Source: Acidobacteriota bacterium
GTDB taxonomy: Bacteria > Acidobacteriota > Thermoanaerobaculia > Thermoanaerobaculales > Thermoanaerobaculaceae
DNA: 42,538 nt
Direction of reading: 5' to 3'
NCBI GenBank assembly: GCA_004298115.1
Contig: SCRJ01000028.1
Location: 1 to 42,538, forward strand
Shown: piece by piece, positions 1,382-28,657 of the stretch
Position numbering within the stretch: the first letter of the stretch is position 1
Layout: the number at the start of each line of letters is the position of its first letter
Program-made: the position numbers and the translations under genes
The notes under the pieces: generated by a model
Seen by the model: the letters and a program-made list of their open reading frames with translations, nothing else
The model's database searches: none
What the model was told of the DNA's origin: nothing

Positions 1382-2599
1382 ATGAGCGAGGTCTGGATCA
1401 CCGGCATCGGGCTCGTCACCGCCCTGGGGCCGGACCGGGAGACGACGTGGCGGCGCCTGGTGGCGGGCGAGAGCGGTATCGGCACGGTCACGCTGTTCGA
1501 CACGGCAGGGTTCCGGACCAGCATCGCCGCCGAGGTCGACGCCGCCGGGCTCGCGCTTCCGGTGCTCGACCGGACCGTCCTCGGCCACGCCAGCCGGGCC
1601 AGCCGGTTCGCGCTGGCGGCCGCCGCCGAAGCCGTCGCCGACGCCGGCCTGGCGTCCGGGCGGCTCGATCCCCACCCCTGGGCGCTCGTGCTCGGCGGCG
1701 GCACCGCCGGTCTGTTCGAGGCGGAGGCGTTCGTGGCGCGGCGGCTGCGGGGCGGCGCCCGCGTGCGCGGCCTGGGGGAACTCGTCGATGTGCCGCAGGA
1801 TGCCCCCTCCGACCGGCTCGGCCTGGCGTTCGGCCTGACCGGCCCTCGCATCACCGTGACCACGGCGTGCTCCTCGTCCACGATCGCGGTCGGGCTGGCC
1901 GCCGAGATGATCCGGGGCGGGGAGGCGACGGTGGCGCTCGCCGGCGGCGCCGACGCCCTCTGCCGCCTGACCTACGCCGGGTTCAACTCGCTCCACGCCG
2001 TCGACGCCGAACCGGCCAAGCCGTACGACCGGCGCCGGCACGGGCTCTCGCTCGGCGAGGGTGCGGCGGTGCTCGTGGTCGAGGACGCCGGTCATGCGCG
2101 CGGCCGCGGCGCCCGCCCGTACGCGCGGGTGCTCGGGTACGGCGCGACCAACGACGCATTTCACATGACCCAGCCGGAGCCTTCCGGCGCGGCATGGGAG
2201 CGCACCCTGCGTGCCGCGCTCGCCGACGCCGGCGTCGGCGCCGACACCGTGGATTACGTCAACGGCCACGGCACCGCGACGGAGCAGAACGACCCGGCCG
2301 AGTGCGCCGCCTACGGGCGGGTCTTCGCGGGGCGCCTGGCGGACGTACCGGTGTCGTCGGTCAAGGGCGCGCTCGGCCACTGTCTCTGCGCTGCGGGGGG
2401 GATCGAGGCGGCGATCACGGCGCTCGCGATCGCCCGTGCGACGCTGCCTCCGACGGTCGGTTTCGCCGCGGCCGATCCGGCGTGCCCGGTCGATCCGGTT
2501 GCCGGCACCGGCCGGCGCGGGTCCGTCGACGTCGCGGTGTCCGCCTCGTTCGCGTTCGGCGGTAACTCCGCCGCGCTGGTGCTCGGGGGCGCCGCGTGA
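1382..2599 (+). CDS. Beta-ketoacyl-ACP synthase, catalytic subunit (KS-alpha type)
   Basis: This 405-residue protein is a thiolase-fold ketosynthase that would condense malonyl-ACP with an acyl chain. All catalytic residues are visible: nucleophile Cys163 in TACSSS, His296 in VNGHGTAT, Lys328 in SSVKGALGH and His333. The second histidine motif reads GHCLCAAGG instead of the usual GHxxGAAG. The length matches FabF-like and type II polyketide KS-alpha proteins. The stop overlaps the GTG of the next gene by four bases (GTGA), so the two are translationally coupled and probably form a heterodimer. No acyl carrier protein, ketoreductase or dehydratase is in the window, so the product cannot be named. 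Fatty acid, aryl polyene and type II polyketide systems all remain possible. Confidence 0.93.
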   Translation: MSEVWITGIGLVTALGPDRETTWRRLVAGESGIGTVTLFDTAGFRTSIAAEVDAAGLALPVLDRTVLGHASRASRFALAAAAEAVADAGLASGRLDPHPWALVLGGGTAGLFEAEAFVARRLRGGARVRGLGELVDVPQDAPSDRLGLAFGLTGPRITVTTACSSSTIAVGLAAEMIRGGEATVALAGGADALCRLTYAGFNSLHAVDAEPAKPYDRRRHGLSLGEGAAVLVVEDAGHARGRGARPYARVLGYGATNDAFHMTQPEPSGAAWERTLRAALADAGVGADTVDYVNGHGTATEQNDPAECAAYGRVFAGRLADVPVSSVKGALGHCLCAAGGIEAAITALAIARATLPPTVGFAAADPACPVDPVAGTGRRGSVDVAVSASFAFGGNSAALVLGGAA

Positions 2600-3741
2600 G
2601 CGCCGCCAGGGTCTACGTCCGCGCGGCCGGCGCCGTGACGCCCGCCGGCACGGGCGTCGCGGCGTTGCGGCGCGCCGCGGCCGATCCCGGCTGGCACCCG
2701 GCACTCGGTCTGCCCCGCCCGGACGCGGAGCCGCTCCCGGTCGCCGTGTGCCGCGAGTTCACCACCAAGGACATCGTGCCGCCCCTCCTGGCCAGACGCC
2801 TCGACCGCCCCTCCCGCCTGCTGGCGGTGGCGGCCCGCGAGGCGCTGCGGGCGGCCGGCGAGCCGCTGCCGTGGGCGCCGGAACGGGTCGGGGTCACGGC
2901 CGGCACCTGGAACTCCGGGACGTCGGCGCTCGTCGAGGTGCTGCGGGCGGTGTTCCTGACCTCCCCGGACGAAGCCCCGCCCGCTCAGTTCCCCTCCACC
3001 GTGGCCAACGCGCCGGCGAGCCAACTCGGCATCCTCGACAAGCTCGGCGGTCCCAACATCACCTTCGCCGAGAAGCAGGTCGGCGGCTTGCGGGCGATCG
3101 TCGAGGCCGCCCGGCTACTCCTCGCCCGGCGGGCCGACGCGGTGGTCGCCTGCGGCGTCGACGAGGGGGACTGGCTCAACGCCGAGGGCTACGCCCGCCT
3201 GCGGGCGCTCGCGGCGCCGGGCCGGGCGGGCATGGTGCTGGGCGAAGGGGCCGGCGTGCTCGTCCTCGCGGGCGATCCCGGCCCGGCGCCGATCGCGGCG
3301 GTCGCCGGCTGGGGTTCGGCGTCGGCGCCCGCCCCACCCCACCGCTACCCGGCGGACGCCGCGGCGCTGGCGGCCGCGTGCGTACAGGCGCTCGCACGCG
3401 CCGGCATCACCGCCTCCGAGGTCGACCTCGTGGTCAGCGCGGCCAACGGCATCCCGGCCCTCGCCGCCCTGGAGCTGGCCGCGATGGACGCCGTCTTCGC
3501 CGGCCACCGCCCGGCCGCCCTGGGGGTCGCCGAGCGCCTCGGCGAAGGAGCCGCCGGCGGGGCGCTGCGGGCCGTCGTCGCGGCGATGACGGTAGCCGGC
3601 GCCGTGCTCCCCGTCTGGGGGTGCCCGGCCCACCTCGCGGCGGCCGGCTACCCGGCGCTCCTCGGCCCCGCGCGCGTCGCCCTGGTCGCCGGCCAAGCCG
3701 GGGGGGGCTCGGCGGTCGCCCTCGTGCTCACCGCCGTCTGA
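2596..3741 (+). CDS. Ketosynthase-like partner without catalytic residues (KS-beta / chain-length-factor type)
   Basis: This 381-residue protein starts at a GTG that overlaps the stop of the upstream ketosynthase. It keeps the ketosynthase fold signatures FPSTVANAPAS, LGGPNITF and VLGEGAGVLVLAG. An ungapped alignment to its partner puts Gln161 at the nucleophilic cysteine position, Ala283 at the first histidine, Ala312 at the lysine and Glu317 at the second histidine, so it should not condense on its own. Cys-to-Gln replacement is the known mark of chain-length factors in type II polyketide synthases, and aryl polyene clusters also carry a cysteine-free partner. Its likely role is to shape the product length in a heterodimer with the upstream protein. 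The Gln assignment depends on my hand alignment. Confidence 0.85.
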   Translation: MSAARVYVRAAGAVTPAGTGVAALRRAAADPGWHPALGLPRPDAEPLPVAVCREFTTKDIVPPLLARRLDRPSRLLAVAAREALRAAGEPLPWAPERVGVTAGTWNSGTSALVEVLRAVFLTSPDEAPPAQFPSTVANAPASQLGILDKLGGPNITFAEKQVGGLRAIVEAARLLLARRADAVVACGVDEGDWLNAEGYARLRALAAPGRAGMVLGEGAGVLVLAGDPGPAPIAAVAGWGSASAPAPPHRYPADAAALAAACVQALARAGITASEVDLVVSAANGIPALAALELAAMDAVFAGHRPAALGVAERLGEGAAGGALRAVVAAMTVAGAVLPVWGCPAHLAAAGYPALLGPARVALVAGQAGGGSAVALVLTAV

Positions 3742-3756
3742 ACCGCCGGTGTCCGG

Positions 3757-4221
3757 TCACGCGCCCAACCACGCCTCGAGCTGGCGGGCGATCCGGGCGG
3801 CGTGGGTCCCTGGCCAGTAGAGCCGGCCGCACCGGTCGCAGGACACGAACCGAGGCGCGTTCGCGGCGACGTACGGCGGCACCCGGTCCCGCACCGTCTC
3901 CCTCGCGACCTCATCCAACGCGCCGTTGCAGCGCGAGCAGCGCGTGAGGAACCGCGCCGGCTCCACCGTCAGCGGCACGCGCCCCCGCAGCTCGCGGATC
4001 TGCGCCGCCACCCCGGCGCGGCGCAGGAGCACCACCCGCGGGCCGGCGAGCGCCGCGAGGCGGCCGTCGCAGGTGAGCAGCCAGCGCCCCTCCCCCCTCG
4101 CCCGGCCCGCGAGCGGAAGGCCGGACAGTGCCGGGTCGAACGACACGTCGTAGCCGGCGAACCGTAACCAGCGGGCAAGACGCCCGAGCATGGCGTCGCA
4201 GGCGAACCGCAACTCCCCCAC
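3757..4221 (-). CDS. Mut7-C (DUF82) RNase-domain protein with zinc ribbon
   Basis: This 154-residue protein starts at a GTG at 4221. Its N-terminal half is a PIN-like domain with FACDAMLGRLARWLR and LLTCDGRLA, the usual conserved acidic positions of the Mut7-C family. The C-terminal half carries a zinc ribbon with CSRC at about residue 94 and CDRC at about residue 130. The family was named from the C-terminus of the animal Mut-7 exonuclease, and its bacterial substrates are not established. It is convergent with the ketosynthase pair (15 bases between the stops, no hairpin seen) and divergent from the DUF465 gene. The family call is secure; the role is unknown. Confidence 0.88.
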   Translation of the reverse strand: MGELRFACDAMLGRLARWLRFAGYDVSFDPALSGLPLAGRARGEGRWLLTCDGRLAALAGPRVVLLRRAGVAAQIRELRGRVPLTVEPARFLTRCSRCNGALDEVARETVRDRVPPYVAANAPRFVSCDRCGRLYWPGTHAARIARQLEAWLGA

Positions 4222-4288
4222 GCCCCGATTCTAGTGTGCTAGCATTCCTGTGGATGCGGCCCACCACCCAACAACCTCGGAGGCGTGC

Positions 4289-4507
4289 ATGACTTCAATG
4301 CAGCAACTGCGCGACCAGATGGCGGATCAGGACCCAGAGTACCGTCGGCTCCTCGAGGAACACCACAAGCGGGCGCAACGCCTGGAGGAGCTCTCCCGCA
4401 AAGGCTGGCTGACCAACGAGGAGGAGCAGGAGGAGAAGCGTCTCAAGAAAGAGAAGCTTCAGCTCAAGGACCAGATGGAAGCGCGCGCCCGCAGCCACGG
4501 CGCGTAG
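4289..4507 (+). CDS. DUF465 / YdcH-like small coiled-coil protein
   Basis: This gene encodes 72 residues, almost all charged helix, with the typical DUF465 pattern HKRAQRLEEL followed by EKRLKKEKLQLKDQ. The ATG at 4289 is chosen because GGAGG sits five bases upstream. An in-frame GTG at 4250 would add 13 unrelated residues. Proteins of this family are small, cytoplasmic and of unknown function. The gene lies seven bases before the phosphatidylserine decarboxylase gene and is probably the first gene of that operon. Confidence 0.85.
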   Translation: MTSMQQLRDQMADQDPEYRRLLEEHHKRAQRLEELSRKGWLTNEEEQEEKRLKKEKLQLKDQMEARARSHGA

Positions 4508-4514
4508 AACCCCG

Positions 4515-5159
4515 ATGGTGCCGTTCGCCCCGGAAGGTTACCCCTTCGTGTTGGTCCCGGCCATGGCCGGGATTCTTGCCTGGGTCTTCGGATATCCGAT
4601 CCTGGCCTGGGCCTGCTGGCTCGCCATGGTGGCGTGCGTCGCGTTCTTCCGCGACCCGGCCCGGCGTTCCGATGCCGCCCCCGAGGTCGTCCTCGCCCCC
4701 GCCGACGGCAAGGTCCTCTCGGTGGGTGCCGCCCCCGCGGCGCTCGCCGAGCGCGGCCTGCCGCAACAGGTCTCGATCTTCATGTCGCCCGCCAACGTCC
4801 ATGTCAACCGGGCGCCGGTGAGCGGCTGGGTGCGCGAGGCGACCCACACCCCGGGAAAGCACTTCCCGGCGTTCCGCGACAAGGCCTCGGACCTCAACGA
4901 GCACAGCTTCGTGCTGATCGAGGGTGACAACGGGCCCGTCGCCTACAAGCAGATCGCCGGTTCCCTCGCCCGCCGGGTCGTCTGTGACCTCGCCGCCGGT
5001 CAGCGCGTCGAGCGCGGCCGCCGCGTCGGCCTCATCAAGTTCGGGTCGCGGGTGGACCTCTTCCTGCCGGCCGGCGCGAGCGTCGAGGTCGCACCCGGCC
5101 GCATCACCCGCGCGGGCGTCACGCCGGTCGCGCGTTTCGCGCCGGGACCCCGGCCATGA
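4515..5159 (+). CDS. psd: Phosphatidylserine decarboxylase
   Basis: This 214-residue enzyme is of the short, archaeal-like type and converts phosphatidylserine to phosphatidylethanolamine at the membrane. Two hydrophobic stretches lie at residues 12-45. The conserved blocks APADGKV, SPANVHVNRAPV (His96) and LIKFGSRVDLFLP are present. Gly177-Ser178 is the expected self-cleavage site that makes the pyruvoyl cofactor from the serine. Its stop overlaps the ATG of pssA by four bases (ATGA), and the two enzymes act in sequence, which strongly supports both calls. Confidence 0.95.
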   Translation: MVPFAPEGYPFVLVPAMAGILAWVFGYPILAWACWLAMVACVAFFRDPARRSDAAPEVVLAPADGKVLSVGAAPAALAERGLPQQVSIFMSPANVHVNRAPVSGWVREATHTPGKHFPAFRDKASDLNEHSFVLIEGDNGPVAYKQIAGSLARRVVCDLAAGQRVERGRRVGLIKFGSRVDLFLPAGASVEVAPGRITRAGVTPVARFAPGPRP

Positions 5160-5980
5160 GGGTGGGGCCGCCCCGCCGGCGCACCCCCAGGCGACCGGCC
5201 CGCGAGTCGTTGCGGCGCGGGATCTATGTGCTGCCGTCGCTGTTCACCGTGGGCAACATGCTGTGCGGCTTCGCGGCGGTGCTGTACGCCATCCACGACC
5301 AGCTCGAGCGGGCGGGGTGGCTGATCGTCCTCGCCGGTTTGCTCGACGGCCTCGACGGACGGATCGCGCGCCTGACGCACTCCACCTCGGAGTTCGGCAA
5401 GGAGTACGACTCTCTGGCCGACGTCGTCAGCTTCGGCGTCGCGCCGGCCATCCTCGCCTACCAGTGGGGGCTCCGGGGCGTCGGCCGCTGGGGCTGGGCC
5501 GTCGCGTTCATGTTCCTCGTCGCCGGTTCGGTGCGGCTCGCCCGTTTCAACGTCAAGGCGGGGGTGGGCGACCGCCGCTTCTTCACCGGCCTGCCGATTC
5601 CGGGCGGGGCCGGTGCGCTGACGATGATGGTCCTGGTGGCCCTCAACTTCGAGCTCGCCGTGCCGCGGGCGCTCGCGGTCGTCGCGTCGGTGTTCGTGTT
5701 CCTGGTTTCGATCCTGATGGTGTCGACGATCCCGTACCGATCGTTCAAGGAGTACAGCCTCCGCCAGCGCTGGCCGGCGACCGCGTTCTTCGTGATCGCT
5801 CTGATCGTGGCCGTGATCGCCTTCACGCCACTCCCCGCGATGGCGTTGTTGCTCAGCGTCTACCTGGTGGCGGGACCGGCCGAGTACCTGGTCCGCCACC
5901 TCCGGCGGCCCGCCGTCGTGCCGCCACCGCTCCAGCCGGCCGCCAAACCGGCCCCGCCCGCGCATGCTGACCATCCTTGA
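5156..5980 (+). CDS. pssA: CDP-diacylglycerol-serine O-phosphatidyltransferase
   Basis: This 274-residue integral membrane enzyme makes phosphatidylserine from CDP-diacylglycerol and serine, the substrate of the upstream decarboxylase. The CDP-alcohol phosphotransferase motif is complete: Asp67-Gly68, Ala71-Arg72, Gly81, Asp85 and Asp89, with a further Asp64 before it. SFGVAPA follows, as is typical of PssA. Several hydrophobic helices follow up to about residue 250, then a Pro/Ala-rich tail. It overlaps psd by four bases and the next gene by 17 bases, so the operon is tightly coupled. Confidence 0.95.
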   Translation: MRVGPPRRRTPRRPARESLRRGIYVLPSLFTVGNMLCGFAAVLYAIHDQLERAGWLIVLAGLLDGLDGRIARLTHSTSEFGKEYDSLADVVSFGVAPAILAYQWGLRGVGRWGWAVAFMFLVAGSVRLARFNVKAGVGDRRFFTGLPIPGGAGALTMMVLVALNFELAVPRALAVVASVFVFLVSILMVSTIPYRSFKEYSLRQRWPATAFFVIALIVAVIAFTPLPAMALLLSVYLVAGPAEYLVRHLRRPAVVPPPLQPAAKPAPPAHADHP

Positions 5981-6917
5981 CCCCACCTCGCTGCTCGGAC
6001 GCGAGATCATGGCGCGGCTCGCGCGGGTGTCGCCGGGCGTTCGCCCGCGGCTGCTCCACACCGCCGCCGATCCCGAGCACCTGATCGCGGAGGTGGCGGG
6101 CGAGCCCGCGCTCGTCGCACCGCTCACGGACCTCGACGAGCTCGAGGGGAGCGCGATCGTCATCCTCACCACCCCGCCCGCCGTCGCGGCGGCGGGTGAG
6201 CGCCTCCTCGCCTGGCTGCGCGCGCACCCGCGCGTGGCTTTTGTGGACTGCACGCAGCCCGGGATCGCGGGGGGCGCGGCGCGGTGCGTCGTCGACGTCG
6301 TGCCGCCGGTGCGGCCGTCGCCGCCGTGGTACCACCTTGCCGACCCGGCCCTCGCCGCTCCCGCGCGGCTGCTCGCGGCCCTCGCCCCGATCGCGCCCGA
6401 GACGGCTCGCCTCACCGTGCTGTGCCCCGCGGCGGGCTTCGGCGCCGAGGGGCTCGAGGAACTGGCGGCCCAGGGAGCGGCGCGCCTGTCCGGGCACCCC
6501 GAACGCAAGGCCGTCCACCTCCCCGGCGTGCTGGCGTTCGATCTCGTTCCCGCGCCGGACGAACGTTCGCGGTATCTCGAAGCCCAACTCGCCGAGGTCT
6601 TCCCGCGCCTGGAGACGAGCGCGACCGTGATCGACGCCGGCGTATTCCACGGCCACCTGGCGACGGTGACGGCCACCTGCGCCGAAGAACCCGGCCTCGA
6701 GCGCGTCCGCGCGCTGATACGATCGACCCCCGGGATGCGCCTGCCGCGCCGCAACGAAACCACGAGCGTGGCCGGCGCCGTCGAGCGGGGGGGAATCGTC
6801 TGCGGCGGCCTCCACGTGCGGGGCCGGACGGTGAGCGCGTGGCTGTGTGCCGACGGGTTGCGGGTCGGCGGCGCCGAGGCCGTGGCCGACCTCGTGACCT
6901 CCATCACCGCTTCGTGA
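5964..6917 (+). CDS. Aspartate-semialdehyde-dehydrogenase-like protein without catalytic cysteine (USG-1-like)
   Basis: This 317-residue protein has the family layout: a Rossmann N-terminus (LDPTSLLGREIMARL), a VFHGHLATVTA block matching the GHS-like substrate segment, and a late dimerisation domain. The segment that normally reads NPNCST is ADPALAAPARLLAAL here, so the nucleophilic cysteine appears to be replaced. The same loss is known in the Usg protein of enterobacteria, whose function is not settled. The start at 5964 overlaps pssA by 17 bases, linking it to phospholipid synthesis by position. It ends inside the 3' end of the convergent exported-protein gene (14-base overlap). A dehydrogenase role in lysine or threonine synthesis is unlikely. 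Confidence 0.72.
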   Translation: MLTILDPTSLLGREIMARLARVSPGVRPRLLHTAADPEHLIAEVAGEPALVAPLTDLDELEGSAIVILTTPPAVAAAGERLLAWLRAHPRVAFVDCTQPGIAGGAARCVVDVVPPVRPSPPWYHLADPALAAPARLLAALAPIAPETARLTVLCPAAGFGAEGLEELAAQGAARLSGHPERKAVHLPGVLAFDLVPAPDERSRYLEAQLAEVFPRLETSATVIDAGVFHGHLATVTATCAEEPGLERVRALIRSTPGMRLPRRNETTSVAGAVERGGIVCGGLHVRGRTVSAWLCADGLRVGGAEAVADLVTSITAS

Positions 6918-8265
6918 GCGCCACGCCCTCCAGCGGTCCCGTCACCGTGCTGCCGTCTCCGACGCGCATCCCCCAGCGGCTCTGAACGCCCCGCGGGGGC
7001 GAGATGAAGGTCACGAGGGCACCGGCGACGCGCGTCCGCGGCGGAACGAACGCAAGGTAGAACCGGAGCGCGGATGCGCCCCGCGCCGCCGTCCGGCGCC
7101 AGACCCCGTCGGCGCCGACCGCCCCGTACTCCATCCCGGAGAACGCCCCGAGTTGCGCATCGCGCACCTCGGTGCCGGTGAACCGCACCTCGACCCAGTT
7201 GCCGGTCGTCGCGAGCGCGCTGGCCTGGGCGGTCGGGTTTGCCAGCGCGACCCGCATCGCCGCGGGCCCGGCCCACTCCACGACCACCCGCGGCAGCGGG
7301 TAGGGACTGCCCCCCTGCAAGTACTCGAGGAACGCCGCAAGGCTCATCCCCAGCGCGGGCTCGCTGGCCGGCAGGCCGACGGTGTCCCAACCTTCCAGCG
7401 CCGGACGGACGGGCCGCAGCAACAGGCCGAGGTCGCGGTGGTACCGGGCGGTGTCGACGGCTTCCACGGTGATGGTCCTCCCCGCCTCCACCTCGACCCC
7501 TCCCCAATCCACGGGCTTGCGCAACCGGAAGGTGTCGCCGCGCTCGCCCGGCGAGTACACGGCCGTCTCCCCGTCCGCCAGCATCGCCAGCGAAGCGCCG
7601 GCGGGCCCCGGGGCCGGTTGAGCGCGGGGTGCGACCACGATCGCCGCTCGGTACGGCATCACCATCGCGTCGAGCCGGCCGAGCGCGGCGAGATCGTCCT
7701 GGAGCGTGGCGGCCGGGAATCCGAGCGCCCCGGGGTTGCCCAGGGCGACCGCCACCGGGCGCACGTGCGGCCATCCCCGCGGCGGAAGGTGCGCGGCGAG
7801 GTCCTGCGCCGGCGCCGCCAGCTCAACCGTCTGCTCGAGGCGGGACGCGACCCGGACCGCGAAGCCGGCGAGTCCGGGGAAGAAGCGCCGCGACGCGAAC
7901 AGCAGCCGCGGCGGCCCGGGGATGCCGCGCTGGACGGGCGCGAACTGCGAGGCGAACATCTGGGCATCGCCGCTCGCCTTGTCCGTGCCCTCGACCCAGA
8001 CGAGGACGGTCAGCGGCCAGCCGGCGAGCGCGTGCAGATCGGGAAGCGGCGCGAGGGTGAAGCGCGACGAACCGTCGCCTATCTCCACCCGCCCCACCGG
8101 AACGACCAGCCCGTCCACCCCGGCCGCCCGCAGGGCTGCGAGCGTTCCCGCCTCCGGAACCCCGGAGAGCAGCCAGACGCGGTGCGTCAGTACGCGAGCC
8201 GGCTCCGCCGCCGCTGCGGCCGCGGCCAGCAGGGCGACGGCCAGGCCGATGCGACCCTTCACCAT
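6904..8265 (-). CDS. Exported protein of unknown function
   Basis: This gene encodes 453 residues from an ATG at 8265, chosen because AGGA lies about eight bases upstream. A second ATG at 8274 would add three residues but has no spaced ribosome site. The N-terminus MVKGRIGLAVALLAAAAAA is a clear signal peptide. The N-terminal half has a motif series reminiscent of a TIM-barrel-like DUF (LAALRAAGVDGLVVPV, PLTVLVWVEG, DAMVMPY). The C-terminal half looks like a beta-rich domain (FRLRKPVDWGGVEVEAGRTITVEA and later). I cannot assign a family. It is the last gene of a leftward series after the large histidine kinase, 138 bases from that gene's stop, and its 3' end overlaps the convergent gene by 14 bases. 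Confidence 0.8.
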   Translation of the reverse strand: MVKGRIGLAVALLAAAAAAAEPARVLTHRVWLLSGVPEAGTLAALRAAGVDGLVVPVGRVEIGDGSSRFTLAPLPDLHALAGWPLTVLVWVEGTDKASGDAQMFASQFAPVQRGIPGPPRLLFASRRFFPGLAGFAVRVASRLEQTVELAAPAQDLAAHLPPRGWPHVRPVAVALGNPGALGFPAATLQDDLAALGRLDAMVMPYRAAIVVAPRAQPAPGPAGASLAMLADGETAVYSPGERGDTFRLRKPVDWGGVEVEAGRTITVEAVDTARYHRDLGLLLRPVRPALEGWDTVGLPASEPALGMSLAAFLEYLQGGSPYPLPRVVVEWAGPAAMRVALANPTAQASALATTGNWVEVRFTGTEVRDAQLGAFSGMEYGAVGADGVWRRTAARGASALRFYLAFVPPRTRVAGALVTFISPPRGVQSRWGMRVGDGSTVTGPLEGVALTKR

Positions 8266-8403
8266 CGTCGTCATCCTACCAGCCTGTTCCGAAAATGCCG
8301 ATCCCTCCTCCCCGGCGATCCGCGCGCGGGGTCGGGCGGCCTCCCTCGCCGCTGCGCGGACCGGCCTCCTCGCTCACCACCGGCGGCGGGCCGCCGCGGC
8401 GCC

Positions 8404-11400
8404 TCAGGCCCCGGCCGGAAAGAGAATGCGCACCTCGAGCCCGGCGCCGACGTTGCCCGCTTCGACGCTGCCGCCCGCCCTGACCGCCACGCGGCGGACC
8501 ACGGCGAGACCGAGCCCGCTCCCCTCGCTGGTCGTCGAGAAGTGCGGCTCGAACAGCCTGCCGAGCAGCTCTGTCGCCACCCCTCCGCCGGTGTCGCGCA
8601 CGGCGAGCGCCACCTGGCGATCGAGGCGTTGCACCCGCACCTCGATCGCGCCCTCGCGACCGGCCAGCACGCGGGTGCTGTTCTCCAGCAGGTGGCGCAG
8701 GGCGCGGCGGACCCACTGCACGTCCGCCACGATCACGGCGTCGTCGTCTCCGGCCAGGCGGATGGCGACGCCCCGCTGCCGCAGCACCTCGTACTCGGCG
8801 ATCACCTCGCCCGCGAGCGCCTTGAGCGCGATCGGCTGCGGCTCCCAATGCTCGAGCGCCACGAGGTTCGAAAACCCCTGTGCGACCTCGCGCAGGTGCT
8901 CGACGCGCTCGAGGATTTGCGGCGCTGCGACCTGCGCCACGGCCACCACCGCGGCAGGGCCTTGGGCGAGGGCGGCCTTGAGCTCCTCCGCCCAGAGCCG
9001 GATCGGCGTCAATGGGTTCTTGACCTCGTGCGCGGCGATGCGGGCCAGCTCCGCGAACGACGACAACCTCTCGGCGCGCGCGAGTTCGGAGAGATCCTCC
9101 ATCACGACGAGGACTCTGGCGCCGCCTCCCGGGAGCGGCAGCGCGGTCACGCGCCACAGCGCCTCCGGCGACGCGGCGGGGTGGACGGTGCCTTCCACCC
9201 GCTCGCCGGCGCCGGCCCGGGCCGCCAGGTGCGCGATCTCGGGCGCGAACCGGGCCGCGAGCGCGGGGATCGTACCCGTTTCGCCCAGGAGTCGGCGCGC
9301 GGCCGGGTTCGCGAGGTTGACGCGGCCGTCGCCGTCCGCTGCCACCACAGCGGCCGAAAGCGTTTCCAAGACCGTCTCGAGGAAGTTCCGGCCGCGGCGC
9401 AGCTCCTCCTCGCGCCGCTGGACCTCGTGCGCCATCGTGGAGAACGCGTGTCCGAGCGCCGCCACGTCCTCGTCGCCGTGCGTGTCGAGACCGGCGACCG
9501 GTTCGCCCCGCTCGAGGCGGTGAGCGGCCGCGACCAGACGGCGGAGCGGCTTCCCCAGGCGCTGGCCGAGGCGCTCCGCCATCCCGAGCGCAACCAGCAT
9601 GGCGAGGACGCCGGTGATCGCGAACCACTCGCCGGGCGAGGGGCTGCGCCCGAGCGCCTGCAGGCGCAGGCCGACGACGCCGACCACGACCGGCTCGCCG
9701 CCGCGCATCGGTGCGAAGACCGCGGTCTCCTCTCCCGAGCTCACGACCACCGGCTCCTGCCAGCCGCGGATCGAGCGGACGTAGGCCTCGGGCGGGGGCA
9801 TCCAGGGGATTTGGCCAAGCGCGGCGAGGTCCGGCCGGGTGGACGAGACGAGCTTGCCGGAGCGGTAGACCACCACGGCGCCGCCGAGCTCGCGGACGAG
9901 CCATGACGTTCCTTCCTGCCACCGCTCCGTGGCCAGCAGCTGGCTCACCGCCCGCGCGAACTCCAACCGCGCCTTCTCCTGCTGCCGATCCCACTGCTGC
10001 GGCAGGAGCTGGCCCAGGAGGAGGACCGGCAGCACGGCGGCCGCCACCGACAGGACGCGCATCCGCCCGCCGAACGTGCGCCGCTGCGCCCACCACGCGA
10101 GCCAGCGCCGGCGACGCTCCCACAGCGTCAACGGGAAAAGGCCCCACAGCGTGAGCCCGGCGACCATGAGGCCGGCTTCCGCCTCGGGCGCGCGCACCCA
10201 GGGAACGACGAGGACGGCGTCGCGGCGGGCGTGGAAGTACGCCTGGAACTCGCGCTCTCCGACTCCCACCCGCAGCCACCCCCGGCCCGCGGCGAGCGCG
10301 CGCCCGACGACGGACGGCGAGAGCGGCCGGAACGTCGCGCCACGGCTCGTCGGTGCGCCGGAACGGTCGAACACGGCCACCGGCGCGGCGACTCCGGCCG
10401 CACCGAGGCCGGCCAGCAGGTCGTGCGGCGGTGGCGGGGCGAGGACCGCCAGCTGCCAGCCGCCGCGCAGCGCCCGCGTCGCCAGTTCCTGCGGCCGTCC
10501 TTCGGTCTCGATCGCCGGTCCGCCCCAGCTTCCCGCCGGCTCGCCGCTCGGGTCGGTGAGGTCGAGCGATGCGCCCGGCAGCGCCTGCCGCAGCCCCACC
10601 CGCGTCGCGAGCCGGCCGAGGACGACCAGCCGTTCCCCGGGATCCAGCCGCACCATTCGCGTCAGGCGGGCCTCGGGGAGCGCGGCCAGCAGCGCGCGCG
10701 CCGGGGCCTGGACGTTCTCGAGGCGCGCCAGGGTCGCCTCGGTGGTCGCCACCAACCCGGTCCGGCGGGCCGCGTCGCCGGCGCCCATCACGATGCCCGC
10801 CGCCGCCAGCGCGGGCAGGAGCAGGCCCCGTCCGGTCAGGCCGAACAGGACGACCGCCGCCACCCCGAGGGCGAGAAGGATCGGATCCGCCCTCGCCACA
10901 CCCACCGCCAACGGCAGCCAGCTCGCCAGGCCGAGCGGCCACGGCACGGCGCCGCGCCCCTTGCCGGCGTTGCGGAGCAGCACCGCGAGGGCGGCCACCA
11001 GCGCCCAGCGCATCGCTCCCGGCCACACCAGGCTCGGCGGCAGCCCCGCGATGCCGAGACGGTCGAAGGCGCCGGCGAGCGCCCACGCGGCCGCTCCGAC
11101 GCCGACCGCGACGGCCGAGCGCCAGAGCCGCCCTCGGGGCACGTCGCTGACCGCCAGGGCGCACGCCGCCACCGCGCCGACCAGCCACCAGCCGATCGGG
11201 AGCCACCCGAGGAGCGGCAGGCCGGCCACGACGGCCGCCGCAACCGCGACCACGGCCCACGCCGGCCCACCGACCACGAGCACGAGAGCGGCGACCAGGA
11301 CGGCGAGGCCGGGCGCGCTCCACGGCGCGGCCCGCACCGGCCGGACCACGAACCCCATCGCCGGCGCCGGCCCGGGCGAAAGGCCGGGCCCCCACCCCTC

Positions 11401-18988: not shown

Positions 18989-19255
18989 CTAGGCCCCTCG
19001 CCCGTCGTTCTTCGCCGCGTCGTCCTCTTCGCGGCCGATCCGCAGCGCGGTCCGGATCGCGTTGAGAAAGCCGCCCGCGACCCCGAAAAGGGTGAACACG
19101 ATCATCAGCCACGGCGCCGTCGAAAACAACCGGTCGAGCCAACGTCCGAAGAAGTACCCGATCGCCATGGCGATCGGAAAGGCGAGACCGATGGAGGTGG
19201 CATCGGCGATGCGCCGGATCGAGGCGGCGGAGCGCCCGCGGCGCTCGTCGCTCAC
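18989..19255 (-). CDS. AtpZ/AtpI-family small membrane protein
   Basis: This 88-residue protein starts at a GTG that overlaps the nuoN stop by four bases (GTGA). It has two membrane helices, IGLAFPIAMAIGYFFGRWLD and APWLMIVFTLFGVAGGFLNA, with the FGRWLD and GGFLNAIR pattern typical of AtpZ. AtpZ and AtpI can form an ion channel next to the ATP synthase in some bacteria. The overlap ties the ATP synthase membrane genes to the complex I operon. Confidence 0.82.
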   Translation of the reverse strand: MSDERRGRSAASIRRIADATSIGLAFPIAMAIGYFFGRWLDRLFSTAPWLMIVFTLFGVAGGFLNAIRTALRIGREEDDAAKNDGRGA

Positions 19256-20703
19256 AACAGTCCCACCGCCCCCGCCATGGCGCGGGCCGCCGCCAGGAAC
19301 GGCGCCGGCAGCAGCCCGATCACCAGGACGGCGACGCCGCACGCCCAGATGACGCGTTCCGTCCACGGCGCGGCCACCAGCGTCGCGGGTTCCGCCCCGT
19401 CGCCTTCACGCAGGTACATCTGCAGCACGATGCGGAGGTAGTAGTAGAGCGAGACGGCCGACATCAGCACCGCGACGACGACCAACCAGACGTACCCCGC
19501 GTTGACGGCGGCGGCGAACAGGTAGAGCTTGCCCATGAAACCTGCGGTCGGCGGGATGCCTCCGAGCGAGAGCATGAACAGCAGCATACCGAACGCGGCC
19601 GCCGGGTGACGGCGCGCGAGACCCGCGTAGTCGGCTACGGTCTCCCCCGCATACCCGCGCGACTCCAGCAGGATCACGAAGCCGAAGGCGCCGATGTTGG
19701 TGACCGTGTACACCAGCATGTAGAAGAGCACGCTGTTGACGCCGGCCGGACCGCCGGCGACCAGACCGACGAGAGCGTAGCCGGCGTGGGCGATCGAGGA
19801 GTACGCCAGCATGCGCTTGACGTTGTCCTGGGTCAGGGCTGCGACGTTCCCCCAGATCATCGTGAGCGCCGCCGCGACCCCCACGAGCCAGATCCACGAC
19901 GCGGCGAGCGGCGCGAGGCCGCCGATGAAGACGCGCAGGAACATGGCGAACGCGGCGGCCTTGGGGCCCACCGACATGAACGCGGTGATCGGCGTCGGGG
20001 CACCCTCGTAGACGTCCGGCGTCCAGACGTGGAACGGCACCGCCGCCACCTTGAACAGGAAGCCGCAGGCGAGCAGCGCGACCCCCACCAGGGCCGACGG
20101 GCCGGGCTTGGCGCTCGCGAGCACGCGGGCGAGCGTGGCGAGGTCGAGCGTCCCGGTCGCGCCGTAGATCAGCGACAACCCGTACAGCAGGATCCCGGAC
20201 GACATCGCTCCGAGCACGAAGTACTTCGCGGCGGCCTCGTGCGACTTGACCTCACGGCGGAAGTACCCGGCGAGGATGTACGTCGAGAGGGCCATGAGCT
20301 CGAGCCCGACGTAGATCACCGCGAGGTTGACGCCCGAGGCCATCGTCATCATGCCGACGGTGGCGAACATGACCAGGGCGAGGTACTCGCCGGGCCGGTA
20401 GTCGTTGCGCTTCAGGTAGTCGTGCGACAGCAGCACGACCAGCGCGGCGGTGAGCAGGAACAGCGCCTTGAAGAAGATGGCGAAGTGGTCGAGCACGAAC
20501 ATTCCGGAGAAGAAGTGCGCGCCCGGGTCGGTGGCGCCGGCGGCGAGCCAGAGCGTCACCCCGGTGGCGGCGAGGGCAAGCACGGCGCCGGCGCCCAGGA
20601 GGCCGTGCCGGGCCTTGCCCGAAGCCAGCCCGGCCAGCAGGACCGCCATGGCCAGCGTCGCCAGCATCAGCTCGGGGAGCAGGGCGATGAGGTCCGCGCG
20701 CAT
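19252..20703 (-). CDS. nuoN: NADH-quinone oxidoreductase-like subunit N
   Basis: This 483-residue antiporter-like membrane subunit of complex I starts at an ATG at 20703, four bases after the nuoM stop. About fourteen helices are visible. Family marks include FLFKVAAVPFHVWTPDVYEGAP, NVKRMLAYSSIAHAGY and GGIPPTAGFMGKLYLF. It carries one proton-pumping unit. Its stop overlaps the atpZ-like start. Confidence 0.97.
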   Translation of the reverse strand: MRADLIALLPELMLATLAMAVLLAGLASGKARHGLLGAGAVLALAATGVTLWLAAGATDPGAHFFSGMFVLDHFAIFFKALFLLTAALVVLLSHDYLKRNDYRPGEYLALVMFATVGMMTMASGVNLAVIYVGLELMALSTYILAGYFRREVKSHEAAAKYFVLGAMSSGILLYGLSLIYGATGTLDLATLARVLASAKPGPSALVGVALLACGFLFKVAAVPFHVWTPDVYEGAPTPITAFMSVGPKAAAFAMFLRVFIGGLAPLAASWIWLVGVAAALTMIWGNVAALTQDNVKRMLAYSSIAHAGYALVGLVAGGPAGVNSVLFYMLVYTVTNIGAFGFVILLESRGYAGETVADYAGLARRHPAAAFGMLLFMLSLGGIPPTAGFMGKLYLFAAAVNAGYVWLVVVAVLMSAVSLYYYLRIVLQMYLREGDGAEPATLVAAPWTERVIWACGVAVLVIGLLPAPFLAAARAMAGAVGLL

Positions 20704-20707
20704 GGTC

Positions 20708-22297
20708 TCAGTGCTCCTGGGTGTGGGCCGCTGGCGGCGCCGTGGGGAGCTCGAACGCCGGTCGGTTCAGGTAGCCGGGGTCCACGACCTCGACGACCCG
20801 CTTGATCGACGGCTCCAGGATCCGGAAGAACGGCTTGGGGTAGATCCCGATCCAAAAGCACAGCGCGATGAGCGGAATGAGCGTCCACTGCTCGCGCAGG
20901 TTGACGTCCTTGAGCGTCTTGTTCTCCTCGTGCGTGATCTCGCCGAAGAAGACCCGCTGGTAGAGCCAGAGCATGTACCCGGCGCCGAGCACCAGCGAGG
21001 TGGCGGCGATCACGGCCCACGTCGTCGAGCGGTTGAACACGCCCACCAGGATCGTGAACTCGCCGATGAAGCCGTTGAGCGTCGGCAGGCCGATCGAGGC
21101 CATGGTGATCACCATGAACATCATCGCGTACACGGGCATGACCTTGGCGATGCCGCCGTAGTCCGCGATCATGCGGGTGTGGCGGCGTTCGTACACGATC
21201 CCCACGAGCAAGAAGAGACCGCCCGTGGAGAGACCGTGGTTGATCATCTGGAGCACCGATCCCGTCAGACCCTGCGGGTTGAGCGCGAACATGCCCAGCA
21301 TCACGAACCCGAGGTGCGAGACCGACGAGTAGGCGACCAGCTTCTTCATGTCCTTCTGCGCCATCGCCACGAGGGCGCCGTAGACGATGCCGATGATCGC
21401 CAGCGCCACGACCCACGGCACCGCCTTGCGCGTCGCGTCCGGGAGGAGCGGCAACGAGAACCGGATGAAGCCGTACGTCCCCATCTTCAGCAGGACGCCC
21501 GCCAGGATCACCGACCCGGCGGTCGGCGCCTCGACGTGCGCGTCCGGCAGCCAGGTGTGGAACGGGAACATCGGCACCTTGATCGCGAAGCCGACGAAGA
21601 ACGCGAGGAAGACCCAGAACTGCACGCCCGGCGGGATCTGGGTCGCGATCTTGAACAGCTCGGTGACGTCGAACGTCGGGGCGTGGCCCAGACCGGGGAG
21701 GCCGATCGCCTTGAGACCGGTCGAGTTGTAGAAGTACAGCGCGAGGATGCCGACCAGCATCAACACCGATCCGAACAACGTGTACAGGAAGAACTTGATG
21801 GCGGCGTAGAGCTTGCGCGGGCCGCCCCAGATCCCGATCAGGAAGTACATCGGGACCAGCATCGCCTCCCAGAACAGGTAGAACAGGATGAAGTCGAGGG
21901 AGATGAAGACGCCGAGCATGCCGGTCTGCAGCAACAGCAGGAAGACGTAGTACTCCTTCTGCCGGTGCGTGATCGCCGTGAACGAGGAGTACACCGCGAT
22001 GAACCCGAGCAGCGTCGTGAGCAGGATCAGCAGCACCGAGATCCCGTCCACGCCCACGTGATAGCGGGCGCCGACCGCGGGGATCCAATCGTGCACGTAG
22101 CTGAACTGGAAGGCGGGACCGGCCGGGTCGTAGAGGAACCACAGCGGCAGCGAGAGCACGAAGTCGAGCCCCGCCACCACCGTGGCCACCGTCTTGATCG
22201 CCGCGCTCTGCTCCTTGCGCAGCAGGAACACGATCACCAGCGCCCCGAGCAGCGGCACGTAGCAGATGACGTTCAGCAGGTTGGTAGCAAAACCCAT
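20708..22297 (-). CDS. nuoM: NADH-quinone oxidoreductase-like subunit M
   Basis: This 529-residue antiporter-like membrane subunit starts at an ATG at 22297 after GAGGGGGAT. Marks include GVDGISVLLILLTTLL, FYLFWEAMLVPMYFLIGIWG (with the conserved Glu), KVPMFPFHTWLPDAHVEAPT, KLVAYSSVSHLGFV and GLPTLNGFIGEF. It lies between nuoL and nuoN in the standard order. Confidence 0.98.
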   Translation of the reverse strand: MGFATNLLNVICYVPLLGALVIVFLLRKEQSAAIKTVATVVAGLDFVLSLPLWFLYDPAGPAFQFSYVHDWIPAVGARYHVGVDGISVLLILLTTLLGFIAVYSSFTAITHRQKEYYVFLLLLQTGMLGVFISLDFILFYLFWEAMLVPMYFLIGIWGGPRKLYAAIKFFLYTLFGSVLMLVGILALYFYNSTGLKAIGLPGLGHAPTFDVTELFKIATQIPPGVQFWVFLAFFVGFAIKVPMFPFHTWLPDAHVEAPTAGSVILAGVLLKMGTYGFIRFSLPLLPDATRKAVPWVVALAIIGIVYGALVAMAQKDMKKLVAYSSVSHLGFVMLGMFALNPQGLTGSVLQMINHGLSTGGLFLLVGIVYERRHTRMIADYGGIAKVMPVYAMMFMVITMASIGLPTLNGFIGEFTILVGVFNRSTTWAVIAATSLVLGAGYMLWLYQRVFFGEITHEENKTLKDVNLREQWTLIPLIALCFWIGIYPKPFFRILEPSIKRVVEVVDPGYLNRPAFELPTAPPAAHTQEH

Positions 22298-22307
22298 CGC
22301 ATCCCCC

Positions 22308-24377
<2,070 letters not shown>

Positions 24378-24380
24378 CGG

Positions 24381-24683
24381 CTATCCCTCCATCACGTTGA
24401 CCTGGTCGAGGTTCACCGTCTGCTTCAAGCGGACGAGCGCGACGATGATGCCGAGGCCGATGGCGGCTTCCGCGGCCGCGATCGTGATCACGAACACGGC
24501 GAACACCTGTCCGGTGAGGTCCCCGAGCTGGCGGGAGAACGCGATGAAGTTGAGGTTGGCGGCGTTGAGGATCAGCTCGACGCACATCAGGACGGTGATG
24601 AAGTTCCGCCGCACCGCCATGCCGACGACGCCGAGCGTGAACAGCGCGAGCGAGAGCACGAGGACGTGCGCGGTCGAAATCAT
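24381..24683 (-). CDS. nuoK: NADH-quinone oxidoreductase-like subunit K
   Basis: This 100-residue, three-helix membrane subunit starts at an ATG at 24683 that overlaps the nuoJ stop by four bases (ATGA). Conserved glutamates sit in the helices (VLMCVELILNAANLNF and AAAEAAIGLGIIV), as in the proton path of the family. The length is normal. Confidence 0.97.
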   Translation of the reverse strand: MISTAHVLVLSLALFTLGVVGMAVRRNFITVLMCVELILNAANLNFIAFSRQLGDLTGQVFAVFVITIAAAEAAIGLGIIVALVRLKQTVNLDQVNVMEG

Positions 24684-25234
24684 GCGGCTCCCCCCCTCCC
24701 CGATTCCTTGCGGCCCATCACGATCGCACCGATCATCGCGACCAGCAGCACGATCGAGACCACCTCGAACGGCAGGAGGTAGTCGCGGTACAGGCTCCAC
24801 CCGACCGCCTCGGTGTTGCCGAGCGGCGCGCCGGCGACCATGCGCAGCGCGGCGCCGTCGGCCGGGAGCCCGCCGGAGGCGGCCCAGATCCCGACTCCGA
24901 CCAGCGCCGCGAGCAGGGCGCCGAGACCGACCGCGGCCGGCACCAGGCGGCGCACGTACTGCGGCTCGTCCGGGATATCCCGCGCCTTCACCAGCATGAT
25001 CACGAACAGGAAGAGCACCATGACCCCGCCGGCGTAAACCAGGACCTGGACGGCGGCCAAGAACTCGGCCTGCATCAGCACGAACACCCCGGCCACCGCG
25101 AGGAAGGTGCCGAGGAGCGAGAGCGCCGCGTGCACGGGACTGCGAAACGCGATGACGCCGACCGCGCCGGCGAGCGCGACCGCCGCCAGGGAGTAGAAGA
25201 CGATCTCGGCGAAGTGAACGAGGAACCAGGTCAT
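24680..25234 (-). CDS. nuoJ: NADH-quinone oxidoreductase-like subunit J
   Basis: This 184-residue membrane subunit has five helices. The start is the ATG at 25234, which overlaps the nuoI stop. The block FLAAVQVLVYAGGVMVLFLF is the family signature that includes the pi-bulge helix. An extended periplasmic loop lies at about residues 115-150. Confidence 0.96.
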   Translation of the reverse strand: MTWFLVHFAEIVFYSLAAVALAGAVGVIAFRSPVHAALSLLGTFLAVAGVFVLMQAEFLAAVQVLVYAGGVMVLFLFVIMLVKARDIPDEPQYVRRLVPAAVGLGALLAALVGVGIWAASGGLPADGAALRMVAGAPLGNTEAVGWSLYRDYLLPFEVVSIVLLVAMIGAIVMGRKESGRGGAA

Positions 25235-25779
25235 GGCTTGGCTTCTCCCCGCCCCGCCGCCGACCCGCCGGTGGGGTCGTCCGGCATCTGTCCGTCCTTC
25301 GGCGACACCACCCCGGGATAGGGGCGCACGCCGGTCCAGTCCTGCAGGCGCTCCTTGGTGAAGTACAGGCGTTCGTTCCGCTCGTACGCCGACGCCTCGT
25401 AGCTCTTGGTCGTCAGCCAGATCGCGAGCGGCTTGGTGGGGCACGCCTCCTCGCAGAGGCCGCAGAACATGCAGCGCTTGACGTCGATGTCGTAGCGGTC
25501 GAGGACCTTCTTCTTGCGCTTCTTGCCGTCGACCTCGATCTCCTCGAAGTGATCCTGGATGTGGATGATGTCGATCGGGCACGCCTTGGCGCACGAGTGG
25601 CAGACGATGCAGCGCTCCTCGGAAAATCCGAACATCCCGCGGAAGCGGTCCTTGGGGACCGGCTTGACCTCGGGGTACTGGATCGTCGCCTTCTTCTTGA
25701 AGAGGAAGCGTCCGGTGACGCCGAGCCCCTGGGCGAGCTCGAACGGCACGAGCGATGCGAGGAAGCCCCAGAAACCCAT
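25231..25779 (-). CDS. nuoI: NADH-quinone oxidoreductase-like subunit I (two 4Fe-4S clusters)
   Basis: This 182-residue subunit passes electrons through two ferredoxin-type clusters. Both motifs are complete: CIVCHSCAKACP and CMFCGLCEEACP. The start ATG at 25779 shares one base with the nuoH stop (TGATG). A charged Lys-rich stretch (DGKKRKKKV) separates the two clusters and the C-terminal tail is Gly/Asp-rich. In a complex without NuoEFG, the N-side of this arm is where another electron donor would dock. Confidence 0.97.
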   Translation of the reverse strand: MGFWGFLASLVPFELAQGLGVTGRFLFKKKATIQYPEVKPVPKDRFRGMFGFSEERCIVCHSCAKACPIDIIHIQDHFEEIEVDGKKRKKKVLDRYDIDVKRCMFCGLCEEACPTKPLAIWLTTKSYEASAYERNERLYFTKERLQDWTGVRPYPGVVSPKDGQMPDDPTGGSAAGRGEAKP

Positions 25780-26831
25780 CACTTCCCTCCGATCAGCAGC
25801 ACGCCGAGCCCGACCGCCATCAGGTTGACCAGACTCACGGGGATGAACACCTTCCAGCCGAGGTCCATGAGCTGGTCGAAGCGGTAGCGCGGGAAGGTGC
25901 CGCGGAACCAGATGTAAACGAAGAGGAACGCCGCCATCTTGAGGACGAACCAGGCGATGGGAGGGATCCACGCGAGTGCCGGCAACGCCCACACGGCCGC
26001 CAGCCAGTTCGGGAACGGCGGCAGCCAGCCGCCGAGGAAGAGCACGGTGGCGATCGACGAGACCACCACCATGTTGGCGTACTCGGCCAGGAAGTAGAAC
26101 GCGAACTTCATCCCCGAATACTCGGTGTGGAACCCGGCCACGAGCTCCGATTCGGCCTCGGGGAGGTCGAACGGGTTGCGGTTGGTTTCGGCGACGCCGC
26201 ACACGAAGTAGATGAAGAACGCCACGATGCCGGGGATGAAGTACCAGACTCCCGCCTGCTTCTGCGCCTCCACGATCTTGACCAGCGACAGGCTGTTCGC
26301 CATCAGGAGAACCGTGACGACCGAGAGGCCCATCGGGACCTCGTACGACACGAGCTGCGCGGCCGAACGCAGCCCGCCCATCATCGAAAACTTGTTGTTT
26401 GACGCCCAGCCGCCGAGGATCACGCCGTAGACCCCGACCGAGGAGACCCCGAGGATGAACAGGATGCCGATGTTGACGTCGGTCAGGTACGGCGTCACCT
26501 CGTAGCCGAAGAGCTTGAAGGCGGGCCCGAACGGGATCACCGAGAACACCAGCAGCGCCGGCGCCACGACCAGCACCGGGCCGAGGAAGTAGACGAACTT
26601 CTCGGCGCGCGCCGGAACGATGTCTTCCTTGACCAGGAGCTTGAGCGCGTCCGCGATCGGCTGCAGCCAGCCGCGCGGACCGACACGGTTCGGCCCGATC
26701 CGGATCTGCATGTATGCCAGGATCTTGCGCTCGAAGAAACTCATGTATGCCGCGATCAGGATGACCGCCAGGAGGATCACGACGATCTTGATCAGCGGCA
26801 CCAGGAGAAACGCTACCCAGGGGTTCGCCAT
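25779..26831 (-). CDS. nuoH: NADH-quinone oxidoreductase-like subunit H
   Basis: This 350-residue membrane subunit forms the quinone-site lid. Marks are ERKILAYMQIRIGPNRVGP, ALKLLVKEDIVP, RNPFDLPEAESELVAGFHTEY and the late RGTFPRYRFDQLM. The start ATG at 26831 lies nine bases after the nuoD stop, exactly where nuoE, nuoF and nuoG stand in a 14-gene operon; they are missing. Confidence 0.98.
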   Translation of the reverse strand: MANPWVAFLLVPLIKIVVILLAVILIAAYMSFFERKILAYMQIRIGPNRVGPRGWLQPIADALKLLVKEDIVPARAEKFVYFLGPVLVVAPALLVFSVIPFGPAFKLFGYEVTPYLTDVNIGILFILGVSSVGVYGVILGGWASNNKFSMMGGLRSAAQLVSYEVPMGLSVVTVLLMANSLSLVKIVEAQKQAGVWYFIPGIVAFFIYFVCGVAETNRNPFDLPEAESELVAGFHTEYSGMKFAFYFLAEYANMVVVSSIATVLFLGGWLPPFPNWLAAVWALPALAWIPPIAWFVLKMAAFLFVYIWFRGTFPRYRFDQLMDLGWKVFIPVSLVNLMAVGLGVLLIGGK

Positions 26832-26840
26832 GGCCGCTCC

Positions 26841-27965
26841 CTACCGGTCGATCTCGCCGAGGACGATGTCGAGCGTGCCGATCACCGCGATGAGGTCGGC
26901 GACCAACAGCCCGCGCACCATCTCGGGGAGGGCCTGCAAGTTGATGAAGCACGCGGGACGCACGTGCAGGCGGTACGGGTGGGCGCCGCCATCCGACACC
27001 ACGTAGAAGCCGAGTTCCCCCTTGGGACTCTCGACCGAGAAATAGGCTTCGCCCTTGGGCGGCTTGATCACCTTCGGGACCTTGGCCATGACAGGGCCGT
27101 CCGGCAGCTTGGCGAGGCACTGCTGGATGATCCGCACCGACTGCCGCATCTCCTCCATGCGCACCAGGTAGCGATCGTACGTATCGCCGTTCGCCCCGAC
27201 CGGGATCTCGAAGTCGTACTGCTCGTAGCGGTCGTAGGGGAACACCTTGCGGATGTCCCACTTCACGCCGGAACCCCGCAGCGGCGGTCCCGTCAGCCCC
27301 CACTCGACCGCGTTCGCGGCGGAGATCACGCCGACGCCGACCGTGCGCAGCTTCCAGATCCGGTTCGTCGTGAGCAGGCGCTCCCACTCGGCGACGCGCG
27401 CCGGGAACTGGTCGACGAACGTGCGGCAGCGGTCCGTCCAGCCGTCGGGCAGGTCGTAGGGCTGGCCGCCGACCCGCATGCTGTTCAGGGTGAGGCGGGC
27501 GCCGCAGTACTCCTCGAAGAGATCGAGGATCTTTTCCCGCTCCTCGAAGGTGTAGAAGAACGGCGACTGCGCACCGATGTCGAGGGCGTGGGTGCCGAGC
27601 CAGATGGTGTGCGAGGCGATGCGCTGCAGCTCGGCCAGGAGCACGCGGACGGCGGACGCGCGCGGCGGCACCGTCACCCCCATGATCTTCTCGACCACCC
27701 CGACGAGCGCCTGGTTGTTGGTGGCGGCCGCCGTGTAGTCGAGCCGGTCGGTGTGGGGGATCGTGCCGTTGTACGTCTCGCGCTCGAAGATCTTCTCGGT
27801 GCCGCGGTGCAGGTAGCCGATGACCGGCTTGGCGTCCACGATGCGCTCGCCGTCGAGCCTGAGGAGCACGCGCAGCACGCCGTGCGTGGCGGGGTGCTGG
27901 GGACCGAACGAGATCTCCATCTCCTCGCTGTCGGGGAACGGCTTGAGGGCCTCGAGGTTGCCCAT
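26841..27965 (-). CDS. nuoD: NADH-quinone oxidoreductase-like subunit D (49 kDa)
   Basis: This 374-residue subunit forms the quinone pocket with NuoB and NuoH. The ATG at 27965 shares one base with the nuoC stop (TGATG). SFGPQHPATHGVLR contains the conserved histidines, and HRGTEKIFE, HTDRLDYTA and LGEIDR at the C-terminus are typical. It is a separate protein from NuoC. Confidence 0.98.
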   Translation of the reverse strand: MGNLEALKPFPDSEEMEISFGPQHPATHGVLRVLLRLDGERIVDAKPVIGYLHRGTEKIFERETYNGTIPHTDRLDYTAAATNNQALVGVVEKIMGVTVPPRASAVRVLLAELQRIASHTIWLGTHALDIGAQSPFFYTFEEREKILDLFEEYCGARLTLNSMRVGGQPYDLPDGWTDRCRTFVDQFPARVAEWERLLTTNRIWKLRTVGVGVISAANAVEWGLTGPPLRGSGVKWDIRKVFPYDRYEQYDFEIPVGANGDTYDRYLVRMEEMRQSVRIIQQCLAKLPDGPVMAKVPKVIKPPKGEAYFSVESPKGELGFYVVSDGGAHPYRLHVRPACFINLQALPEMVRGLLVADLIAVIGTLDIVLGEIDR

Positions 27966-28597: not shown

Positions 28598-28657
28598 GGC
28601 CGCCTCCTCACGAGCGAGTCGCCAGTCAAGAGTCCACAGCTGCCTGGCGCATCCCGC

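Follow-up and report, generated by a model that had tools for sequence, protein, structure and literature searches.

An overlapping ketosynthase gene pair with a catalytically dead partner in Thermoanaerobaculaceae, and its probable carrier protein at an unlinked locus

What is the function of two overlapping genes that encode an intact ketosynthase and a ketosynthase homologue without a single catalytic residue, and with which carrier protein would they work if none is encoded beside them? The question is raised by the window, the whole stretch of 42,538 nucleotides analysed here. It corresponds to contig C74 in the draft genome (G000, 3.97 Mb) of an acidobacterium of the family Thermoanaerobaculaceae. 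The initial annotation had described an overlapping KS-alpha/KS-beta pair at 1382-3741 whose left side was cut off; both reading frames and their GTGA overlap are present as described, and the window does begin at the contig end, so that the left context had to be taken from relatives with longer contigs. The features needed for the argument are the following.

1382..2599, plus strand: KS1, the KS-alpha, a FabF-like ketosynthase of 405 aa with an ATG start and with Cys163-His296-Lys328-His333 intact
1868..1870, plus strand: TGC codon of the KS1 nucleophile, Cys163
2596..3741, plus strand: KS2, the KS-beta or chain-length-factor-like partner, 381 aa with a GTG start, no catalytic residue left
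2596..2599, plus strand: four-base GTGA overlap of the KS2 GTG start and the KS1 TGA stop, probably coupling their translation
2794..2799, plus strand: codons of KS2 Arg67-Arg68, aligned with FabF Arg68/Lys69 and invariant in the KS2 proteins of the clade
3076..3078, plus strand: CAG codon of KS2 Gln161, at the nucleophile position

The overlap, as GTGA or ATGA, is kept at 11 other loci of the clade. Since the genes on both sides (822-1346 on the left and the Mut7-C RNase-like gene 3757-4221 on the right) lie on the minus strand, the transcription unit can hold at most KS1 and KS2; a search for promoter and terminator patterns found none. Further into the window, a nuo-type (NADH dehydrogenase) operon occupies 18989-29511 on the minus strand, as judged only from the first residues of the translated sequences.

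KS1 matched PF00109/PF02801 at 5e-37/4e-33 in the Pfam search and FabF structures at about 1e-72 in the PDB search; the KS2 matches to the same two Pfam families were weak, yet above the cut-offs (57 and 27.5 bits). Both proteins fall below the 493.75-bit cut-off of TIGR03150, the housekeeping FabF model (KS1 344.7 bits, KS2 73.4 bits), FabF being the best, sub-threshold NCBIfam match of KS1 and a remote one of KS2. An alignment of 106 KS proteins bears out the full Cys-His-Lys-His set earlier ascribed to KS1 (C163, H296, K328, H333) and places Q161, A282, A312 and E317 of KS2 at the same four columns. In every genome KS1 retains all four catalytic residues and KS2 lacks them. The earlier view of KS2 as a dead subunit with glutamine at the nucleophile, as in chain-length factors, therefore stands as far as the loss and Gln161 itself are concerned, no cysteine being found there, but the likeness to chain-length factors does not extend past the window's own family (f1): KS2 orthologues carry glutamine in f1 only, aspartate in f5, f10 and f11, which are families of the same class, and glutamate in the more distant f7. 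This variation means that Gln161 is not a conserved glutamine of the CLF or KSQ type, and it speaks against a conserved KSQ-type decarboxylase.

The same residue bears on the idea that KS2 supplies a different chemistry, either as a starter-making decarboxylase of the KSQ type or as a cyclization factor like the one proposed for AmcG of cispentacin biosynthesis. Gln161 does occupy the nucleophile position as in KSQ, and the AmcF-AmcG (KS-CYF) pair likewise joins a ketosynthase to a motif-less partner (PMC10698177). However, not only is the residue exchanged for Asp or Glu in relatives, but the partner histidines are lost as well; KS1 scores 230 bits against the AmcF model, well under its cut-off of 325, and no AmcH-type starter enzyme was found at either this locus or the second one described below. 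Moreover, the cyclization factor is reported to lack secondary structures (PMC10698177), while the fold predicted for KS2 is that of a full-length KS. We regard such a chemistry as improbable.

A KS2 that does no chemistry itself could conceivably be a decaying FabF paralogue without function, which would fit the disappearance of all catalytic residues and its faster evolution (mean distance 0.53, as opposed to 0.40 for KS1). Its dN/dS against the closest relative is nevertheless about 0.25 (0.245), which indicates purifying selection (KS1 0.18, neighbouring genes 0.19-0.23); no orthologue contains an internal stop, 13 columns including Arg67-Arg68 are invariant, the gene overlap has been retained and the split from KS-alpha is ancient, all of which makes decay hardly credible. 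In a tree of 49 sequences, alongside which a quick tree of 75 rows was also built, KS-alpha and FabF are set apart from KS-beta and the CLF references (95/99, 96% of bootstraps), which gives KS2 a branch of its own rather than making both proteins unrelated single FabF-like enzymes. Both sides of the tree repeat the same order, with f1 sister to f5 with f10/f11, followed by f7 with f13/f14, and KS1 and KS2 distances correlate with r = 0.95, as expected if the pair was inherited vertically. The earlier assignment of the pair to a polyene or polyketide type is supported as regards its KS lineage, which differs from the housekeeping FabF; the latter is encoded separately, at G000:C41 next to the FAS ACP.

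The nearest named relative found is 37-71-11, a metagenome-assembled genome of an Acidobacteria bacterium, whose KS2 is 85% identical; the relatives are Acidobacteriota MAGs, and the lineage had rightly been called little studied. All 17 f1 genomes compared contain KS2 orthologues or fragments (56-85% identity over whole genes), and identity drops to 35-40% in f5, f10 and f11 and to about 30% in f7. No orthologue is present in f2, a family of the same order as f1 that was represented by 20 genomes. Among 396 genomes sampled across the phylum, the KS2 type (E <= 1e-131) is confined to f1, f5, f10 and f11, and all further matches are at 1e-75 or weaker; a census of 149 genomes of the class added one partial match, in family f90. 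Genes of the relatives were called with our own ORF scorer, which may have misplaced some starts and miscalled some short genes. The class also contains a second KS-alpha/KS-beta lineage (L071, L073, L074, L075 and L078, in f12, f13, f15 and f6), which groups with chains B and C of the solved pair 9s5h; in its KS-beta proteins the nucleophile position is occupied by P, C, T, S or L.

What, then, could a dead partner contribute? The predicted single-chain model of KS2 (pLDDT 90.8) has a complete double thiolase (FabF) fold. Its best structural match is to FabF (Z about 50), closely followed by the act and ishigamide KS/CLF entries (Z 48.6-48.9; 48.9 for 6kxf), and it superimposes on the act chain-length factor, 1tqy_B, with a TM score of 0.83; these matches are tied, and the fold thus does not discriminate FabF from CLF. 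The invariant Arg67-Arg68 of KS2 correspond in the alignment to Arg68/Lys69, residues at which E. coli FabF docks ACP. In that enzyme K65E and K65A/K69A weaken ACP crosslinking (PMC7138838), and an arginine pair of ApeC has been proposed to bind ACP (PMC8358021). A strict division, in which KS2 would dock the ACP and KS1 would not, was considered and dropped, as KS1 of f5, f7, f10 and f11 has basic residues there too.

In f1 the pair is flanked on the left by MscL, ankyrin or TetR and RND efflux genes, and on the right mostly by Mut7-C, DUF465, psd and pssA. None of the f1 genomes has an ACP, KR or DH gene adjoining it, so the statement that no carrier or tailoring gene lies next to the pair holds true locally. 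TetR was discarded as a candidate regulator, since in relatives it sits with the RND efflux operon. The phospholipid genes psd/pssA lie near the pair, beyond an opposite-strand gene, in part of f1 only and are absent beside it in f5, f10 and f11; the proposed link to the phospholipid operon was accordingly abandoned. In f5, f10 and f11 a 4HBT thioesterase gene usually follows the pair, often overlapping it, and in f11 the genes for exosortase H and an associated membrane protein come next; exosortase H is found 0.6-9 kb from the pair in f11 and in part of f5. The f11 order KS1-KS2-thioesterase-exosortase H may be the ancestral arrangement. A dependence of the pair on exosortase H is kept only as a lead, because f2 genomes encode exosortase H but lack the pair, and a literature search for a link between exosortase H and ketosynthases found none. 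Exosortase H and its associated protein also occur in the window's genome (L090, G000:C24:1-12000, at 318-1784), and in nine f1 genomes a 4HBT thioesterase is encoded at a distance of about 1 kb from them.

The arrangement in f7 is of a different kind: a FAD-dependent halogenase-like protein, an ACP and a 122-aa hotdog protein are encoded directly upstream of KS-alpha and KS-beta, with GT2 following. The protein encoded first in this cluster (L061, 4989-7379) has 796 aa, and its second half resembles a flavin-dependent halogenase/monooxygenase domain. Homologues of the f7 ACP and hotdog protein are present in the window's genome, away from the pair. Of its three ACP genes, one is the FAS ACP at C41, one belongs to a type III PKS cluster at C172, and the third, at C199:71.9-72.2 kb, overlaps the gene of a 127-aa FabZ-like hotdog protein, after which a STAS-domain gene follows. 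The C199 ACP is 43% identical to the ACP upstream of KS-alpha in f7, and the adjacent hotdog protein is 29% identical to that of f7. PRK09184 is the best family match of the C199 ACP (61.5 bits, cut-off 70), and the ACP of a sister family shares 35% identity with an APE ACP of E. coli; the one APE hotdog gene compared could not be aligned with the C199-type hotdog protein. Against their closest relative, the C199 ACP and hotdog protein have dN/dS values of 0.05 and 0.21, respectively.

The 127-aa protein has a predicted FabZ-like fold (pLDDT 80), and its match to the NCBIfam FabZ model (E 3e-9) is far below the cut-off. Across the aligned members the FabZ glutamate is nearly invariant, while the HFPG histidine, which is catalytic in FabZ, is missing in every one; the loss of the histidine makes dehydratase activity doubtful. 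Such a hotdog protein is encoded in all families with the second locus, which in f5, f11 and partly f10 additionally holds GT2, an XrtA-type polysaccharide deacetylase, an acyltransferase and a FabG/FlxB-like ketoreductase; the ketoreductase and the dedicated acyltransferase are limited there to f5, f10 and f11, candidates for the latter in f1 being FabD-level matches only. In f1 and f5/f11 the STAS-domain gene (L125, 7162-7512; homologues L182-L201, 48-96% identical) stays beside the ACP and hotdog genes, in f5 together with a PilZ response regulator, and its product is possibly a regulator or an ACP binder. In f5, f11 and f14 the ACP/hotdog locus adjoins nuo genes. The C172 cluster (L126, G000:C172:50000-64000, at 2704-8845) combines a chalcone-synthase/DpgA-like type III PKS gene and its own ACP with an AMP-binding ligase, an ICMT-type methyltransferase and a FAD oxidoreductase; it is a separate, natural-product-like cluster of the same genome.

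We compared the occurrence of KS2 (E <= 1e-80, plus the fragment-only genomes G003 and G004) with that of the hotdog protein (E <= 1e-28), through which the adjacent ACP was judged. Among the 149 genomes of the class, both are present in 32, neither in 112 and one only in 5. The exceptions are G002 (74% complete), G057 (with a merely FabZ-level hotdog match) and G492 with KS2 only, and G075 and G093, both highly fragmented, with the hotdog protein only. As presence follows families, this co-occurrence amounts to few independent gains or losses, and a shared pathway is better supported by the linkage seen in f7. The system is consequently small and stand-alone, as initially proposed, only when viewed locally.

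These findings can be weighed against a simpler scheme, in which KS1-KS2 would work only with the housekeeping FAS (ACP, FabG, FabZ, FabI) and provide membrane lipids with a special chain length. The bare surroundings of the pair in f1, the proximity of psd/pssA in part of that family, the want of a dedicated acyltransferase there and the core-gene-like retention in 17/17 genomes would all agree with it. Yet the genome has a probably dedicated ACP and a hotdog protein that co-occur with the pair, psd/pssA are no neighbours outside f1, and f2 manages with FabF alone; we thus consider this scheme unlikely, though less so than a separate chemistry of KS2.

How does the pair relate to known systems? 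Like a type II PKS KS-CLF in the broad sense, it combines an intact Cys-His-His ketosynthase with an adjoining homologue that lacks the nucleophile, the KS-beta branch being apart from both KS-alpha and FabF, and such pairs of non-actinobacteria, including Acidobacteria, have been catalogued before (PMC10132072). Aryl polyene (APE) systems, represented by ApeO-ApeC (E. coli CFT073 in L107; Acinetobacter and Xenorhabdus structures), likewise join a KS to a non-catalytic KS-like partner with an arginine pair proposed for ACP docking; their small dedicated ACP of the PRK09184 type and, in the wider system, their FabZ-like hotdog protein, thioesterase, KR and GT2 have probable counterparts here. 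In contrast, an APE pathway is encoded in one cluster uniting ACPs, KR, DH, KS-CLF, the second ketosynthase ApeR, ammonia-lyase/ligase or methyltransferase-type starter genes and export genes, whereas f1 has no such cluster, the present system is split over two loci where no starter or export genes were seen, and KS2 is of full length (381 aa) rather than about half a KS, as is ApeC (240 aa in CFT073). In highly reducing type II PKSs (ishigamide Iga11-Iga12, PDB 6kxd/6kxf; 9s5h B/C), a KS-CLF makes polyenes with ACP, KR and DH, but Iga11 and 9s5h_B group with the other KS-alpha lineage of the class (f12, f13, f15). Aromatic KS-CLFs (actinorhodin, PDB 1tqy; the Streptomyces pair in L108) share the overlapping genes and, with f1, the Gln at the KS-beta nucleophile position; they are far off in the tree, though, that Gln is unconserved in the orthologues here, and aromatase/cyclase genes are absent. 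Finally, FabF shares its fold and active site with KS1, and is its best NCBIfam match, but KS1 stays under the FabF cut-off, FabF has no dead partner and the genome has its own at C41.

Taken together, we think it probable that KS1 and KS2 associate as KS-alpha and KS-beta in one heterodimer, the condensing enzyme of a highly reducing, aryl-polyene-like type II system whose genes are divided between two loci; the heterodimer, its use of the C199 ACP and a lipid or polyene product are what we infer. KS1 would load the acyl chain on Cys163 and condense it with malonyl-ACP. KS2, without chemistry of its own, would complete the dimer, wall the chain cavity and offer its Arg67-Arg68 patch for ACP docking, a division of labor suggested by the fold, the arginine alignment and the FabF and ApeC literature. 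The dedicated carrier would be the unlinked ACP at G000:C199, beside the FabZ-like hotdog protein, and housekeeping FabD and FabG presumably replace the acyltransferase and ketoreductase missing in f1. The initial observation was right, its interpretation half so: the KS-alpha/KS-beta pair exists, but it very likely belongs to a two-locus pathway untied to phospholipid synthesis. More speculatively, this vertically inherited, dispersed pathway might fulfil a core function for envelope lipids or surface glycans in four families of a single acidobacterial class, as opposed to classical secondary metabolism; its KS-beta would then chiefly dock the ACP and shape the cavity, and would be tied in f5/f11 to the thioesterase and exosortase H.

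KS-CLF systems are usually found through clustered genes, and in this genome the likely carrier is encoded away from the condensing pair; we found no earlier report of such a dispersed two-locus arrangement in the open-access literature. If it holds true, split systems such as this one escape gene-cluster miners. The natural Gln/Asp/Glu exchange at the dead nucleophile of KS-beta orthologues bears on the long-standing question of the role which chain-length factors assign to that residue. From the arginine pair that KS2 has retained, a simple and testable docking hypothesis follows. Last but not least, the retention of the pair and of the ACP locus in nearly all members of the family suggests that these bacteria, a lineage known almost only from metagenomes, make the product as a regular constituent of their cells.
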